A DNA stretch of 24,720 nucleotides from a virus: the IMG/VR virus record IMGVR_UViG_3300015245_000074, positions 1 to 24,720 of that record, one strand, 5' to 3'. Under the pieces are notes generated by a model that saw only the letters and a program-made list of their open reading frames with translations, did not search any database and was not told where the DNA came from. Position numbers and translations under genes: made by a program. Shown piece by piece: positions 717 through 6,864 of the stretch. Position 1 is the stretch's first letter; each line of letters begins with the position of its first letter.

Positions 717-1275
717 GCTTCCAGGTCTTTCCGCGCCTTGCGCAGCAAATCGTGGATACCGTGACGCCGAATAATTCCGACAATTCTACGCCTGTTTTTG
801 AAGATGATCGTATCGTCCTTACGTCTCCCTCGGTCAGCAATGAATTGCCATTCTCCGAACCCCGCAGGATGTAACGCCTTCCTTTGGCATCCATATCTGC
901 GACGTTATCGGCATCTGTCCCGAGAAAAAGGTGGCTAGGCCGCAAGCACGGGCGATTGTCGCAATGGTGCAAAACATGCAATTCGTCTGGGATTGGGCCA
1001 ACATAAATTTCGTAAGAAGATCGATGCGCGCGATAGTCGCGACCTTTGCACTTTACGACCCCATAACCACCTATCGGGTCAAGTGTATGCCGCCACTCCC
1101 AACACCCATTCGGCATTACCTCCCATCCGCGATAAAAAAACCAATCATAAACCGTCATCGCCATGCGGCATTTCAAAGAGCAGTGCGTGGCCCTTTCCTG
1201 TCTATATGGCTTTGGCTCAAACTCCTGTTCACACTTAATGCAAACTTTTTTTATCCGAGGGATTTTGGCGTTCAT
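706..1275 (-). CDS. HNH endonuclease with N-terminal zinc finger and C-terminal HTH
   Basis: This 189-residue protein looks like a free-standing homing-type endonuclease. It has a zinc knuckle (C12, C15, C32, C36), then an HNH_3-type core with LHVLHHCDNRPC (residues 99-110) and H115, followed by the usual HLFLGTDADNVADM stretch. A helix-turn-helix segment of the kind that follows such nucleases is at about residues 147-187 (LLTEGDVRTI, ELFGVTVSTI). Its ATG overlaps the methyltransferase stop (ATGA), and its end overlaps the DnaB start. It is therefore wedged between two replication-related genes, a common location for phage homing endonucleases. The family call is firm; homing activity is inferred. 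Confidence 0.88.
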   Translation of the reverse strand: MNAKIPRIKKVCIKCEQEFEPKPYRQERATHCSLKCRMAMTVYDWFFYRGWEVMPNGCWEWRHTLDPIGGYGVVKCKGRDYRAHRSSYEIYVGPIPDELHVLHHCDNRPCLRPSHLFLGTDADNVADMDAKGRRYILRGSENGNSLLTEGDVRTIRSSSKTGVELSELFGVTVSTICCARRGKTWKHVD

Positions 1276-2315
1276 TCTGCGGCCTCTAATTCGTCGTCGA
1301 AGTCGCCGCGAGAAACCTCCAACTCTGGGAACGGCTGGCGGTCAGGGTCATCGAGTTCGAGCGCCCCTTGTTCTTCTTCCTTCCGACCCTCGTAAGCGAC
1401 CTGAATATTCTTGATCGCTTGCCGGTAATAGGATGGCTTGAGTTCGATACCGATCGATCGCCGCCCGTTTTGCAACGCACCGTAGACCTCGCTCCCCACG
1501 CCCATAAATGGCGTCAGAACGGTTTCGCCCGGGTTGCTCCACAGAACGATTGTCCGGTCGATAACGTCAAGCTGCAGCGGATGAACGTGCTTCTCGTCCT
1601 CATCGTCTTTGGCTTGCCTGAACGGCAAGACGCGGCCGAGGCGGATATCATCCCAGAATGCCGAGGCGTATTGTCGCCAAATCCAATGGGAATAGCGGTT
1701 TTCGATTTGGTTGCCTTGGTGGCCGCGATATTTCAGCAATTCAGCCGGGACCGGCCGAGCGCCAGCATATTCCATCAGTCCCGTAGGGTGCGTGATCGGG
1801 ACCTTGTTCTGCCCGTCACGACGAAACACCAGCATGTAATCCGCCGACGCCACGCTGCAGCGGGACGAATCCTCGACCAATGATCGATGGGCCAGGTTCT
1901 TCGCCATCGTCCGGTTGCGCACTGCCAGCGGTTCTTTCCATACCGCATACCGCGCGATGAACTTGAACCCGTGCTTTTCGTGCAGGCGGATGATGTCGCC
2001 GGGGAAGTCGATCAGATGGTCCGTGCCGCTGTTGCCGGATGGAACATCCATGCAGTGAACCGCCGTCATCCGGCCCGGCACCGTCAGCCGCGCCAATTCC
2101 TTCACCACAAACCCGTAATGGGCAAAAAACTGGTCATAGTCGGCACAGTTGGAAAGGTCCCGCTCCGAGCTCGAATAGCAGAACAGTCCGCCGAACGGCG
2201 GCGAGTAAACCGACAGGTGAATGGATTTTGCCGGCAACTGTCGCATCACCTCGACACAATCGGCATTGTATGCCGCGAATCGGTCGGTCAGCTTTTGGTC
2301 AATGACTAGAGCCAC
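1272..2315 (-). CDS. DNA methyltransferase, beta-class, N4-cytosine/N6-adenine type
   Basis: This 347-residue protein is an AdoMet-dependent amino-methyltransferase. Catalytic motif IV is SPPF (residues 38-41), close to the N-terminus. The AdoMet-binding motif is near the C-terminus: TPFMGVGS (268-275), followed by GIEL (289-292). HPLQLDVIDR (245-254) precedes it. This order (IV before I) defines the beta class. SPPF/Y is more typical of N4-cytosine enzymes than the DPPY of adenine enzymes such as CcrM, but specificity cannot be read from sequence. It starts at GTG, overlapping the helicase gene by 10 bases. No cognate restriction endonuclease is adjacent, so it is probably an orphan enzyme for anti-restriction or regulation. 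Confidence 0.9.
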   Translation of the reverse strand: MALVIDQKLTDRFAAYNADCVEVMRQLPAKSIHLSVYSPPFGGLFCYSSSERDLSNCADYDQFFAHYGFVVKELARLTVPGRMTAVHCMDVPSGNSGTDHLIDFPGDIIRLHEKHGFKFIARYAVWKEPLAVRNRTMAKNLAHRSLVEDSSRCSVASADYMLVFRRDGQNKVPITHPTGLMEYAGARPVPAELLKYRGHQGNQIENRYSHWIWRQYASAFWDDIRLGRVLPFRQAKDDEDEKHVHPLQLDVIDRTIVLWSNPGETVLTPFMGVGSEVYGALQNGRRSIGIELKPSYYRQAIKNIQVAYEGRKEEEQGALELDDPDRQPFPELEVSRGDFDDELEAAE

Positions 2316-4657
2316 GAGGGTATCCCTTTCTGTTCTGTGAATTTCATACTGCGATCGACCTCGACCGCCCCATTCATGTGGCGGATCAAATCCGCGAACA
2401 TCTTGTCGGCAGCGACAGCCTTCCGCTGCAGGTTGGCGAGAACACCCTTCTCACCCTCCGTCGTCACGATATCGGAAATCACCTGATGCTTCTGACCGAA
2501 GCGCCAGCAACGCCGGATGCTTTGATAGTAAGCCTCAAAGCTGTGCGTCGGGAAGGATACCGAATGCGCACAATGCTGGAAATTCAGGCCCCATGCGCCA
2601 ATCTTTTCTTTCGTCACCAGCACGCGAGCGCGACCCTCGATAAAGGCCAGAAACTTTTCTTCCTTGGCTTCGTCGCCGTCCTGCCCGCTGATTTGGATAG
2701 CGTCCGGGATCATCTTTTCAAGGTGATTGCCCTCATCATTGAGCGAGCACCACAGGATTGCCGGATTGCCGGTTTTGTTCACCAGCGAGGCGGCTTTTTC
2801 GCAGCGTTCTACGATAGTTCGCCGCCGTTCCTCGCGTTGTTCGGTAAGCCCGAAGGCCGGCAGGGCGAACAGCATCCCATCCGGGTTGGTTTGGGCATCA
2901 ACCATATGCTGGCGCTCGACCAATGGCGGGAGATTGAACGGGCCATCCTCAAATCCGAGGTCGGAGGGTTTGCGCACCGCCCGCGCCCATGAACACACCC
3001 ATTGCCAGAACGGGTCCTCAGCGTGACCCTTGAACCGCCACTTAGCGTTGTCGTCGAGTTGGGAAAACTTCCGGCCACCGTGGCGATAGACCGATGGCTT
3101 GATCGAATTTCCTTGGTTGTTTTTGAAGAACCGCGCCAGCATATCCATGTACCCGAGATACCCAAGCGCCTCGCTGCTGGTGCCGAGTTCGATGTATTCG
3201 TTTGGGCTTGGCGTAGCCGTGCAAAGCAAGCGGTACCGCATCTTGCGCATGAAGTCGGTTATCTGTTGCCGTCGCACGCCATCGAACGATTTCAGAATCG
3301 CCGAATTGTGGACGAGCAACCCACCGACCGAGAAACTTGGATGCCGTGTTGCGCCAATGTCATAGAAATAAAGTTTTCCATCGGCATCCCGGTATCGATC
3401 CAAGTCAGGATGTCCCAATTCCAAAACCTCAATACTGTCCACCCGAGTGAAATCAGCATCTCGTCTTTCTTCTGATCCAGATGCTTCCGCGATCTGTGAG
3501 AGTGACCATCCACCTCGATTGCGATTTTCAGTCCTTCGTTCGCCAAATCTATTTTGTAATTCGTCGGATACCCCGGCTTTAATCGGCCCAGTGACAAAGC
3601 ATATTCCGCCGTCCAATTCCCTGACATCACAGCTTTCAAAGCGGCCTGAGCCTCGGTCATCGGATGACCATTCCCCCCACGCACGGAAGGTTTGTGGTTC
3701 CTCTCTTTCAATGCGCGGGACAGTTTCGCGCGGGTTTCCGGAAGGTGCATGCGATTTATCGTGGAAAACCTCGCTAACTCCGCTTGAGCTTTTGGCTTCC
3801 CAGAATTCAGCCACGACGATCTGGATTGCCCGCGCCTCGCAGCCACCTCCGGAGTATGCACCTTGGCCAGATGCTCTGGCCGGCTCATCCGCCATTTCGC
3901 TGAGCAAGATCGTCCGCAAAATCTCGTTTTCGCCGCTTGGACACAACGAGGGGCGAAGTCCTTCTTGCACCATTCGCACGGCCGCAGCCGTTGCCAGTAT
4001 TTTTGATCCTGGCCACAAATCCATCGCCCCGCGCCATCCCGATTGGGTGAAGAATGGATGATTGGGGCTACAGACGACGGATTGACCGCCAACAGAGACT
4101 TTGACCGCATAAGGAACTTCTCTCCTGTGAACCTCTGAAACGCGATCAACTCCAACTGCATTCAGAATGTAGTCCCCCTCTCGAATGTTTTCAATATCGC
4201 TCTCCGAGCGCCGGCCATCGCAATCAACGACATCAATCTTCGTTCCGGCAGCAAAGCATTCGTCGCACACCATCCCTGAAAAATCCTTCGGGTCGAAAAG
4301 GTGCAGCTTCTCGTAATTGGCGACGATAATTCCCGGCTTGGCGCCGCCGGTTTTGGATATCTTGCACTCAACCCCGAACTTCTCGCCCTCCCGAACCGTC
4401 TGCGCCCCGACCGCCAGCGGCGTCAGCACCAGCACCGGCTTATTCGTCTTGCGGACCACGTTCTCGGCCCAGGTCAACTGCATCAGCGTTTTGCCAAGGC
4501 CAGTATCCGCGAACAGAGCGCTACGGCCCTTCAATACTGCCCACGAAACCAACGACCGTTGGAAATCAAACATTTCATCGGGAAAATACTCGGCCTCGAA
4601 CCCGTCATAGGTTCCGAGTTGCGTTTTCTTGTCGAGAAAATCCTCATATTTACCCAT
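2306..4657 (-). CDS. SNF2-like DNA helicase interrupted by an intein
   Basis: The 783-residue ORF comprises an SF2/SNF2-type helicase of about 465 residues plus a 318-residue intein (residues 134-451). The extein shows Walker A ADTGLGKT (50-57), a DExx box VCDE (130-133) continuing as SAILKSFDG after the intein, motif III LLCTATPSPNEY, and motif VI QSIRRCWRFGQ near the C-terminus. The intein splits the DExx box directly after DE, so ATPase activity would require splicing to VCDESAILK. The gene overlaps its neighbours by 8 and 10 bases, next to the DNA methyltransferase. Helicase-methyltransferase pairs are common in phage early operons. The exact substrate is unknown. Confidence 0.9.
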   Translation of the reverse strand: MGKYEDFLDKKTQLGTYDGFEAEYFPDEMFDFQRSLVSWAVLKGRSALFADTGLGKTLMQLTWAENVVRKTNKPVLVLTPLAVGAQTVREGEKFGVECKISKTGGAKPGIIVANYEKLHLFDPKDFSGMVCDECFAAGTKIDVVDCDGRRSESDIENIREGDYILNAVGVDRVSEVHRREVPYAVKVSVGGQSVVCSPNHPFFTQSGWRGAMDLWPGSKILATAAAVRMVQEGLRPSLCPSGENEILRTILLSEMADEPARASGQGAYSGGGCEARAIQIVVAEFWEAKSSSGVSEVFHDKSHAPSGNPRETVPRIEREEPQTFRAWGEWSSDDRGSGRFESCDVRELDGGICFVTGPIKAGVSDELQNRFGERRTENRNRGGWSLSQIAEASGSEERRDADFTRVDSIEVLELGHPDLDRYRDADGKLYFYDIGATRHPSFSVGGLLVHNSAILKSFDGVRRQQITDFMRKMRYRLLCTATPSPNEYIELGTSSEALGYLGYMDMLARFFKNNQGNSIKPSVYRHGGRKFSQLDDNAKWRFKGHAEDPFWQWVCSWARAVRKPSDLGFEDGPFNLPPLVERQHMVDAQTNPDGMLFALPAFGLTEQREERRRTIVERCEKAASLVNKTGNPAILWCSLNDEGNHLEKMIPDAIQISGQDGDEAKEEKFLAFIEGRARVLVTKEKIGAWGLNFQHCAHSVSFPTHSFEAYYQSIRRCWRFGQKHQVISDIVTTEGEKGVLANLQRKAVAADKMFADLIRHMNGAVEVDRSMKFTEQKGIPSWL
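3292..4161 (-). CDS. Endonuclease (zinc finger + NUMOD3-like + DUF559/Vsr-like) nested in the intein in another frame
   Basis: This 289-residue ORF is on the same strand as the helicase but in a different frame, and almost all of it lies within the intein DNA. It shows a zinc finger (C62, C65, C82, C86), then a basic linker with NUMOD3-like repeats (PETRAKLSRALKERNHKP). The C-terminal domain looks like DUF559/Vsr-like nucleases: YKIDLA with D205, IAIEVDGHSH with E216, D218 and H222, D229, and LGWTVLRFWN. It is probably the homing endonuclease of the intein. A second ATG at 4110 has an AGGAG about 11 bases upstream and may be the real start. Its stop falls just beyond the intein end, inside extein sequence. 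The domain call is good; expression is inferred. Confidence 0.72.
   Translation of the reverse strand: MQLELIAFQRFTGEKFLMRSKSLLAVNPSSVAPIIHSSPNRDGAGRWICGQDQKYWQRLRPCEWCKKDFAPRCVQAAKTRFCGRSCSAKWRMSRPEHLAKVHTPEVAARRGQSRSSWLNSGKPKAQAELARFSTINRMHLPETRAKLSRALKERNHKPSVRGGNGHPMTEAQAALKAVMSGNWTAEYALSLGRLKPGYPTNYKIDLANEGLKIAIEVDGHSHRSRKHLDQKKDEMLISLGWTVLRFWNWDILTWIDTGMPMENFISMTLAQHGIQVSRSVGCSSTIRRF
3305..4258 (-). mobile_element. Intein (Hint domain) in the helicase Walker B motif
   Basis: This is a protein-splicing element of 318 codons. Block A is CFAAGTKI, starting at the nucleophile C134 of the host ORF. Block B is SPNHPFFT with H200. Block F is RHPSFSVGGLLVHN, ending in H450-N451, and the next extein residue is S452. 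All residues needed for standard splicing are present. The roughly 170 residues between block B and block F do not resemble a LAGLIDADG or HNH domain. They are hydrophilic and rich in R, E, S and G, as expected if this stretch is constrained by another reading frame. The insertion point lies in the most conserved ATPase motif, a typical intein site. Confidence 0.93.
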
Positions 4658-5692: not shown

Positions 5693-6346
5693 TCAAACCT
5701 TTCCGTTCATCAAATTCGATATTGTTGCCTGCGATACACCGTAGATCACGGCTATAGCAGTCTGAGATAGGCCGTGCGTTGCGCAGATTTTTTCACGCTG
5801 TTCAACAGTCAGTTTGGAGCAGGGAGATGCTGCGCCACGCGGTTGACGATATCCCGTTTCCGCATACGAGCGCCTGTTCTCAACCTGCTGCCCTTGCGTC
5901 GCCCATCGGCAGTTTGATTTTTCGTAATTTCCATTTTTGTCGGGGAAGCGGTCAATCGACTTGCCCAGCGGCGGGTCGCCCATATCTTCATGGAAGTTCT
6001 CGAATACCATCCATCGCTCACAAACCGAAATGCCACGGCCGCCATAGTAAGAGAAATCATCGTTATTTTCGTTTAGGCATCGGCCTTTCATATGCTTCCA
6101 GATGGTGTAGGCACGGGATTTCGTCCTGCGCTGGGAATGTCCGTGGCGCAATTGGCGGATAATTAAATCCGCATATTGTCGACAGCCGCAGCCAGTCGAC
6201 CGCCCGCTATGTAGCGAATTGGCCAGAACTAGACGGGTCATCCCGCAGGAACATTTGCACAGCCAATAGATGGGCTTGAACGATCCCACGCGCATAACTT
6301 CCCAATCGCCAAGAATGCGACCCGTCAAATCGATAAAAGCTGGCAT
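5693..6346 (-). CDS. YGGRG-type endonuclease-like phage protein (copy 1)
   Basis: From ATG 6346 this is a 217-residue protein. That start overlaps the resolvase stop as TGATG and is preferred to a start 45 bases upstream that would run into the resolvase gene. It has a Cys-rich N-terminal segment (C30, C32, C34; C53, C55) and a core YGGRGISVCERW (101-112), FENF, DMG, SIDR (130-133) and NCRW (145-148) followed by QQVENRRS. The C-terminal end is a helix-turn-helix (GLSQTAIAVIYGVSQATISN). This layout recurs in phage proteins treated as HNH-like or homing-type nucleases. A relative lies at 13602-14228. Nuclease activity is not demonstrated by the motifs alone. Confidence 0.78.
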   Translation of the reverse strand: MPAFIDLTGRILGDWEVMRVGSFKPIYWLCKCSCGMTRLVLANSLHSGRSTGCGCRQYADLIIRQLRHGHSQRRTKSRAYTIWKHMKGRCLNENNDDFSYYGGRGISVCERWMVFENFHEDMGDPPLGKSIDRFPDKNGNYEKSNCRWATQGQQVENRRSYAETGYRQPRGAASPCSKLTVEQREKICATHGLSQTAIAVIYGVSQATISNLMNGKV

Positions 6347-6864
6347 CAGAACATCCCCATTTTTTCCGCATGATAGAGGGCAAGGCAGCATGCGTCAGCC
6401 AGTCCATGATGTTTTTTTAGTGTGATGAATTTTCGGGCCTCTGGATATCGATGTTTGATCAGTTCCACTGACATCTGCTTATCCGGCCCTTTCAGGCCAA
6501 AGTGCCGTTTCCAGCTTTGCGGGTGAACCATCACCACAGGCGTTGTGTAGACCGCCACGACGCCGCGAATCATCCCGCAGGCCAATCCGAACCGAAACGA
6601 GCTCGCCGCGCCCATGGACCGCCGCGCGCCGTCTGGCCCAGGTATCGACGGCATCGGCTGGACGTTCTCGATCACCACCACGTCCGGAACCCACTTTTCC
6701 ATCAGGTCGCAGATAAAGCTGGCGTCAAGCTGGCGCTTCTCGCCGTCGGGAATGGTTGCCAGATCGACCATATCAAGGAACCGCGGCGCGGGGTCGAAAT
6801 CGCCCCCACGAACTAGCAACGCGGCGCTGCCGTTAATTCCGGGATCGAATGCGGCTATTCTCAC
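6346..6864 (-). CDS. RuvC-like Holliday junction resolvase
   Basis: This 172-residue RNase H-fold protein has the usual resolvase length. Acidic catalytic residues are at D7 (AAFDPGING), E66 (VVVIENVQ) and D157 within KKHHGLADACCLALY. The enzyme would cut four-way junctions during phage recombination and debranch DNA before packaging. The start is GTG at 6864, overlapping the upstream small gene as GTGA, so it belongs to the leftward early operon. The next gene (YGGRG type) starts within its stop codon. Confidence 0.92.
   Translation of the reverse strand: MRIAAFDPGINGSAALLVRGGDFDPAPRFLDMVDLATIPDGEKRQLDASFICDLMEKWVPDVVVIENVQPMPSIPGPDGARRSMGAASSFRFGLACGMIRGVVAVYTTPVVMVHPQSWKRHFGLKGPDKQMSVELIKHRYPEARKFITLKKHHGLADACCLALYHAEKMGMF

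Follow-up and report, generated by a model that had tools for sequence, protein, structure and literature searches.

A putative homing endonuclease gene nested out of frame within an intein of a viral DNA helicase gene

Introduction

Classical large inteins carry a LAGLIDADG or HNH endonuclease as an in-frame domain, placed between the two Hint halves and made in the same frame and the same polypeptide. Vsr-like (EDxHD) nucleases reportedly occur in another setting: Dassa et al. are said to have described them in 2009 in fractured phage genes, as free-standing nucleases located between split-intein halves. I-Bth0305I (PDB 3r3p, named there 'Mobile intron protein') is a nuclease that we take to be encoded in a group I intron. 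Finally, the ShiLan element is an out-of-frame HNH endonuclease found in actinophage DNA methylase genes (Arsenault, Gosselin, Gogarten 2025, PMC11855218). It is without a detectable splicing domain and is thought to remain in the protein; its nuclease has a GTG start, for which internal initiation was proposed and no ribosome-binding site was found (PMC11855218). The same authors report that overlapping frames are frequent in actinophages, citing Gorbalenya 1998 and a 2025 preprint in which Gosselin et al. treat actinophage inteins of 'non-canonical architecture' (doi 10.1101/2025.01.02.630785; cited in PMC11855218). Judging from the terms in which it is cited, that preprint may already describe the nested architecture for actinophages.

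Here we analyse a virus record of 24,720 bases (IMGVR_UViG_3300015245_000074), called the window throughout, in whose numbering all coordinates are given. Its helicase gene resembles classical large inteins in having a homing endonuclease between both Hint halves. However, the intein contains no in-frame endonuclease; the nuclease lies in the +1 frame and would be a separate protein. With fractured genes the locus shares the nuclease superfamily, the place between Hint-N and Hint-C, and an occurrence mainly in phage replication and repair genes. There the host gene is split into two ORFs, whereas in the window no stop interrupts the intein frame across the nuclease and a single 783-codon ORF spans the intein, which would thus be expected to splice in cis. 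The nested arrangement is a second way of accommodating this kind of nuclease in that place, with the gene unbroken. The catalytic fold and the conserved E-x-D, H and D are those of I-Bth0305I, which resides in an RNA intron, in contrast to the overlapping intein frame used here.

Among the accounts compared, ShiLan is the nearest published precedent. Both have a homing-type nuclease in another frame of an insertion that is open in the frame of a phage host gene, with an internal start proposed. ShiLan, however, is an HNH nuclease lacking a splicing domain and a ribosome-binding site, whereas the window has a full Hint domain around a DUF559/EDxHD nuclease, with Shine-Dalgarno-like signals. 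The idea of an out-of-frame nuclease, whose novelty a preliminary description of this DNA had left undecided, is therefore not wholly new (PMC11855218). We consider it very probable that the window element is a mobile intein with a homing endonuclease gene nested out of frame and internally initiated.

Results

A complete intein interrupts the helicase gene

On the minus strand, the helicase ORF (4657..2306) encodes 783 aa uninterrupted by stops and matches a PHROG DNA helicase (E=6e-43). It comprises the following features.

2306..4657, minus strand: phage DNA helicase gene of SF2 type, with the intein between its N- and C-exteins (ORF; PHROG)
3305..4258, minus strand: intein of 318 aa, with C1 in CFAAGT, block-B-like SPNHPFF and C-terminal LLVHN, then S+1
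3467..3880, minus strand: middle of the intein frame, no predicted fold (pLDDT 35-45; no stops over the nuclease core, where 9.1 are expected)

The intein is an in-frame insertion right after the Walker-B DE of the helicase (DE|SAILK), with an N-terminal cysteine, a block-B histidine and a terminal HN followed by serine. C1, the block-B histidine and the terminal HN are invariant across 38 sequences. Taken as a single sequence, the helicase frame matches Pfam Vint, Intein_splicing and PT-HINT, all below cut-off; Intein_splicing is matched by 42 of 42 family members. The preliminary description had read the helicase frame as open through a complete Hint domain, which these results bear out. The limits it gave, 3292-4258, are here corrected to 4258..3305 for the intein, with the extein S+1 at position 3304 by coordinate count.

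In the predicted model of the intein both Hint halves exceed pLDDT 90, and Foldseek matches it to the gp41-1, BIL, DnaB and RecA inteins (E 5e-6 to 1e-3); model and matches together indicate a Hint fold. About 140 central residues stay at pLDDT 35-45. By this model the central part of the intein frame seems to be an unfolded linker, present because this DNA encodes the nuclease, in agreement with the earlier suggestion that it is a by-product of the other frame.

The second frame encodes a predicted EDxHD endonuclease

A second ORF of 289 codons (4161..3292), on the same strand as the helicase and in the +1 frame of the intein, was correctly recognized at the outset. Its features are as follows.

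3292..4110, minus strand: nested homing endonuclease gene, 272 aa from the likeliest start, ATG 4110 (DUF559; model; fold match)
3904..3978, minus strand: treble-clef-like zinc finger, C45, C48, C65 and C69 of the 272-aa protein (conservation; FCS/L24e-type profile matches)
3394..3561, minus strand: EDxHD/DUF559 nuclease core, D188, E199, D201, H205 and D212 of the 272-aa protein (conservation; profile matches)
3294-3292, minus strand: stop codon of the nuclease (ORF end)
4121..4126, minus strand: Shine-Dalgarno-like AGGAGA, 10 nt before ATG 4110 (duplex -7.4 kcal/mol)

The separate profile search of this ORF that had been proposed found DUF559 above cut-off (E=9e-12), and a search of PDB sequences matched 3hrl (E=2e-13) and 3r3p (E=0.019). 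In an alignment of 58 sequences, D188, E199, D201 and H205 are invariant and D212 nearly so, and the four zinc-finger cysteines (C2-C2) are at least 90% conserved. The zinc finger and nuclease domain named in the preliminary description are thereby upheld; the NUMOD3 repeats it also named are unsupported, with a match below cut-off (E=0.18).

The nuclease model built from the same alignment has a mean pLDDT of 87, with the core mostly above 90. Foldseek ranks the catalytic domain of I-Bth0305I (3r3p) first (prob 0.99, TM by target 0.61, E=0.027), followed by 3hrl and, lower down, Vsr. The protein thus combines the E-x-D, H and D core of EDxHD homing endonucleases with a predicted PD-(D/E)xK-like fold related to I-Bth0305I. 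The final codons of the 289-codon ORF extend into the extein and are unconserved; in relatives the nuclease ends just before the end of the intein. If translation starts at 4110, the nuclease overlaps the intein frame by about 806 bp, so that the double reading stands at slightly less than the roughly 850 bases first estimated. One relative (L004:470-1549) has a tandem duplication of the zinc finger. A search with the nuclease gave no match in plasmids.

Long spurious ORFs are common in GC-rich genes and the window itself has long antisense ORFs, which raises the alternative that the second open frame is a by-product of coding bias and that only the intein or only the nuclease is real. We judge this highly unlikely. 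All 63 family members examined match DUF559 in the nuclease frame, for which the model gives a confident predicted fold matching I-Bth0305I, while the other frame yields a predicted intein fold. Moreover, that intein frame contains stops in free-standing relatives (L023 and L079).

The double reading is beyond chance and its phase is conserved

A stop in the intein frame requires T at the third codon position of the nuclease, followed by AA, AG or GA. As a null we shuffled synonymous codons of the nuclease core, keeping protein and codon usage. Recoded versions of the window carry a mean of 9.1 Hint-frame stops; none is observed, and 0 of 50,000 recodings were free of stops. The double-frame arrangement of the window is real and far beyond chance.

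Searches based on the nuclease, across viral contigs, bacterial and archaeal genomes and cultured phages, yielded a non-redundant set of 98 loci that match Hint, counting the window. Beyond the window, the double-reading design recurs in well over 100 viruses and bacterial genome bins. Relative to the nuclease, the offset of the Hint frame is identical in all 98 loci, and 97 of the 98 combine this phase with zero Hint-frame stops. In total, 5 Hint-frame stops are observed against 685 expected, all 5 in one decayed locus (L023), whereas in the third frame the recoding null predicts 1076 stops and 1194 occur. Loci were ranked by similarity, and thus decayed versions are under-sampled. The preliminary description had singled out homologues with a broken alternative frame as evidence against nesting; in the homologues the frame proved open and in the same phase.

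A further search used Hint-N and Hint-C alone, without the nuclease as bait, and gave 60 loci, many of them on contigs already found. The EDxHD nuclease lies in the same phase in 53 of these and in frame in none. A search of cultured phages with the intein as protein query gave no match.

A single genome would look identical if an in-frame nuclease had degenerated or been mis-sequenced through two compensating indels, with the intein frame left open by luck, and a related nuclease core does stand in frame with Hint in L123, the sole in-frame case of the nuclease-based search. We give this explanation next to no credence. About 97 non-redundant loci, drawn from cultured phages and from different samples, share the phase, which rules this explanation out for the family; additionally, intein-frame stops are nearly absent, and the nuclease is under purifying selection (see below). 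The in-frame core of L123 (2339-5018) lacks the zinc finger and lies in a UvrD-like helicase from an archaeal genome bin. In another locus (L106:3431-4079) the nuclease overlaps an open frame with a Hint-C-like end, and no Hint-N was found upstream; this is possibly a split (fractured) intein whose C half is overlapped by the nuclease.

Selection acts on the nuclease frame

Frame-specific selection, another check proposed earlier, was assessed by comparing sequences in 24 disjoint pairs. Counted per codon, the first, second and third nuclease positions show 0.24, 0.21 and 0.43 differences, respectively. In every one of the 24 pairs the protein read in the intein frame is less conserved than the nuclease. 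These substitution patterns indicate that it is the nested frame on which purifying selection acts.

Identity in the middle of the intein frame is 0.48, as against 0.32 after recoding, and nears the recoded value in the most divergent pairs. Because shared ancestry explains much of this excess, we set aside amino-acid-level selection on the intein-frame middle and limit our claim to the avoidance of stops.

The decayed locus (L023:3312-4151) retains an intact nuclease, 59% identical to that of the window over the core, and is surrounded by Hint(-C) remnants broken by stops. Its sequence is compatible with either a decayed intein or an escaped nuclease.

Probable internal initiation of the nuclease

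Both 4161 and 4110 had been proposed as starts of the nuclease. From 4161, the upstream part would be Hint-N read out of frame, and we reject this start; the AGGAGA 10 nt upstream of ATG 4110 and the closest relatives both point to 4110. Approximately the same position of signal and start is used in L018, L027, L031, L097 and L034, the last with AGGAGG there. ATG 4110 is, on this comparison, most likely the start in the window.

In five relatives (L034, L057, L063, L068 and L105) a stop in the nuclease frame directly precedes the Shine-Dalgarno signal and ATG, and at several loci this series stands immediately ahead of the zinc finger. The sequences upstream of the nuclease are AAGGAGGTAAAGT-ATG in L034, GAGGAGATTCTGACC-ATG in L063 and AAGGAGTATATACTA-ATG in L105. 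As a stop, a Shine-Dalgarno signal and an ATG lie just before the nuclease in many relatives, internal initiation is likely. Across the 98 loci, the best combined energy of start and Shine-Dalgarno signal favours the nuclease frame over each of the other frames of the same stretch (p=2e-11 and 8e-5).

A strong signal (<= -6 kcal/mol) lies within the scanned region at 43 of 98 loci, leaving more than half without one; in those relatives initiation may be weak or of another kind. This shortfall, together with a nuclease frame that is open well upstream of the zinc finger in the window and some relatives, would also fit a programmed frameshift (+1 or -2) out of the Hint frame, producing a helicase-HintN-nuclease fusion with no internal initiation. 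Such a frameshift appears unlikely to us, given that signals and starts are enriched in the nuclease frame over the other two, that in the five relatives above a stop is followed at once by signal and ATG, and that the HNH family described below has the same enrichment.

Insertion sites and intein-free alleles

The family insertion point is nearly always just after the Walker-B DE, or one to two residues past it. Host genes with this insertion are helicases, clamp-loader-like genes and terminase-like genes, the non-helicase names being read from the flanks. The arrangement also occurs in cultured phages of Vibrio, Pseudomonas and Corynebacterium, within genes whose annotation is helicase or hypothetical, with the nuclease in the +1 frame of the annotated gene (in part by coordinate arithmetic).

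Intein-free alleles exist for the cultured relatives. At the position where CP-T1 has VTDE|intein|CHH, the Vibrio phage vB_VchM-138 has an uninterrupted VTDEAHH, the flanks being about 93-98% identical over longer windows. The pair 142E35-1 (intein-free) and 159E43-1b has the same exact insertion, at DE|A, with A changed to C. The change from DEAH to DECH at the insertion supplies the cysteine required for splicing. In the otherwise close alleles L013 and L316, and L010 and L317, this change is seen in the codon of the +1 extein residue, where GCT or GCG has become TGC; the spliced helicase would retain the altered residue beside Walker B.

Read together, these features suggest how the element would work. 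Translation in the helicase frame would give a helicase-intein precursor, whose Hint halves would fold together and self-splice out to restore the helicase, the nuclease-coding stretch forming a disordered, stop-free linker within the intein. Separate ribosome initiation at ATG 4110, in the +1 frame, would yield a free zinc-finger EDxHD endonuclease. This enzyme would cut intein-free Walker-B sites, and repair would copy the intein in. Splicing, translation from 4110, cleavage of empty sites and homing are steps that we infer. Since close phages with and without the intein are available, a clean test is possible.

A second nested family carries an HNH nuclease

In the Hint-only search, 6 of the 60 loci have an HNH nuclease in the +2 frame of the intein; two of these nucleases were checked and match Pfam HNH_3 (E=7e-14 and 4e-17). 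A scan for such nucleases gave 86 loci, 74 of them nested in the +2 phase, two (L279 and L299) in the other out-of-frame phase and none in frame; the remaining 10 are without a Hint-N match, some on truncated contigs. Nested loci thus total 76 of 86.

L208, L211, L213, L216, L218, L219 and L236-L315: HNH_3-type nested loci

At non-redundant nested loci 4 intein-frame stops are observed where 100 would be expected, and a single truncated contig holds all 4, whereas HNH loci without Hint have 17 observed and 17 expected. Shine-Dalgarno enrichment is found in this family too (p=5e-4 and 9e-5). Among cultured phages, Highwayman, TJE1 and LS06-2018-MD07 carry an HNH nuclease in the +2 frame of a gene annotated only as terminase, as determined by coordinate arithmetic. 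Both the HNH and the EDxHD families were sampled by similarity, so the counts describe these families and not inteins overall.

The same nesting in the HNH family makes out-of-frame nesting a recurrent architecture, and the occurrence of two unrelated nucleases in three combinations of family and phase argues for repeated origin. The phase may follow a rule based on which stops can be removed silently. In the EDxHD phase, a silent change from NNT to NNC removes any intein-frame stop. Methionine followed by K, N, T, I or M occurs in 0 of 82 cases in nested HNH nucleases, 180 of 557 in EDxHD nucleases and 1 of 20 in non-nested HNH nucleases, a control that is too small; as the zero is a consequence of there being no stops, these counts illustrate the phase rule without proving it.

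We lean, with some reserve, towards a broader reading, that out-of-frame nesting is a general solution, reached in evolution, to the problem of keeping a nuclease in an intein while the host gene stays unfractured. Nesting would then have arisen at least three times (EDxHD in +1, HNH in +2 and HNH in +1) in phage P-loop ATPase and terminase genes, with the nuclease having its own translation start and the phase being set by stops that can be silently removed.

In these loci the same DNA specifies a splicing element when read in one frame and a mobile nuclease when read in a second, repeatedly and also in cultured phages. They offer a route to the open question of how free-standing homing endonucleases enter inteins, and of how large, split and fractured inteins are related. 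Additionally, they provide a system for studying overlapping genes, in which the overlap is long, the phase is fixed within the EDxHD family, and the free-standing nuclease of L023 represents the second frame released.

Neighbouring genes

Upstream of the helicase gene in the window, a 232-aa ORF (5693-6391, minus strand; GGRGISVCERW...SIDRFPDKNGNYEKSNCRWAT) resembles, by eye, phage homing proteins of HNH/AP2 type; its sole Pfam match is a weak one to HTH_3. Directly downstream of the helicase gene lies an N6/N4 DNA methylase (1272-2315, minus strand; Pfam E=3e-16). In two relatives, L002 and L004, the helicase ORF itself continues into a methylase-like stretch.
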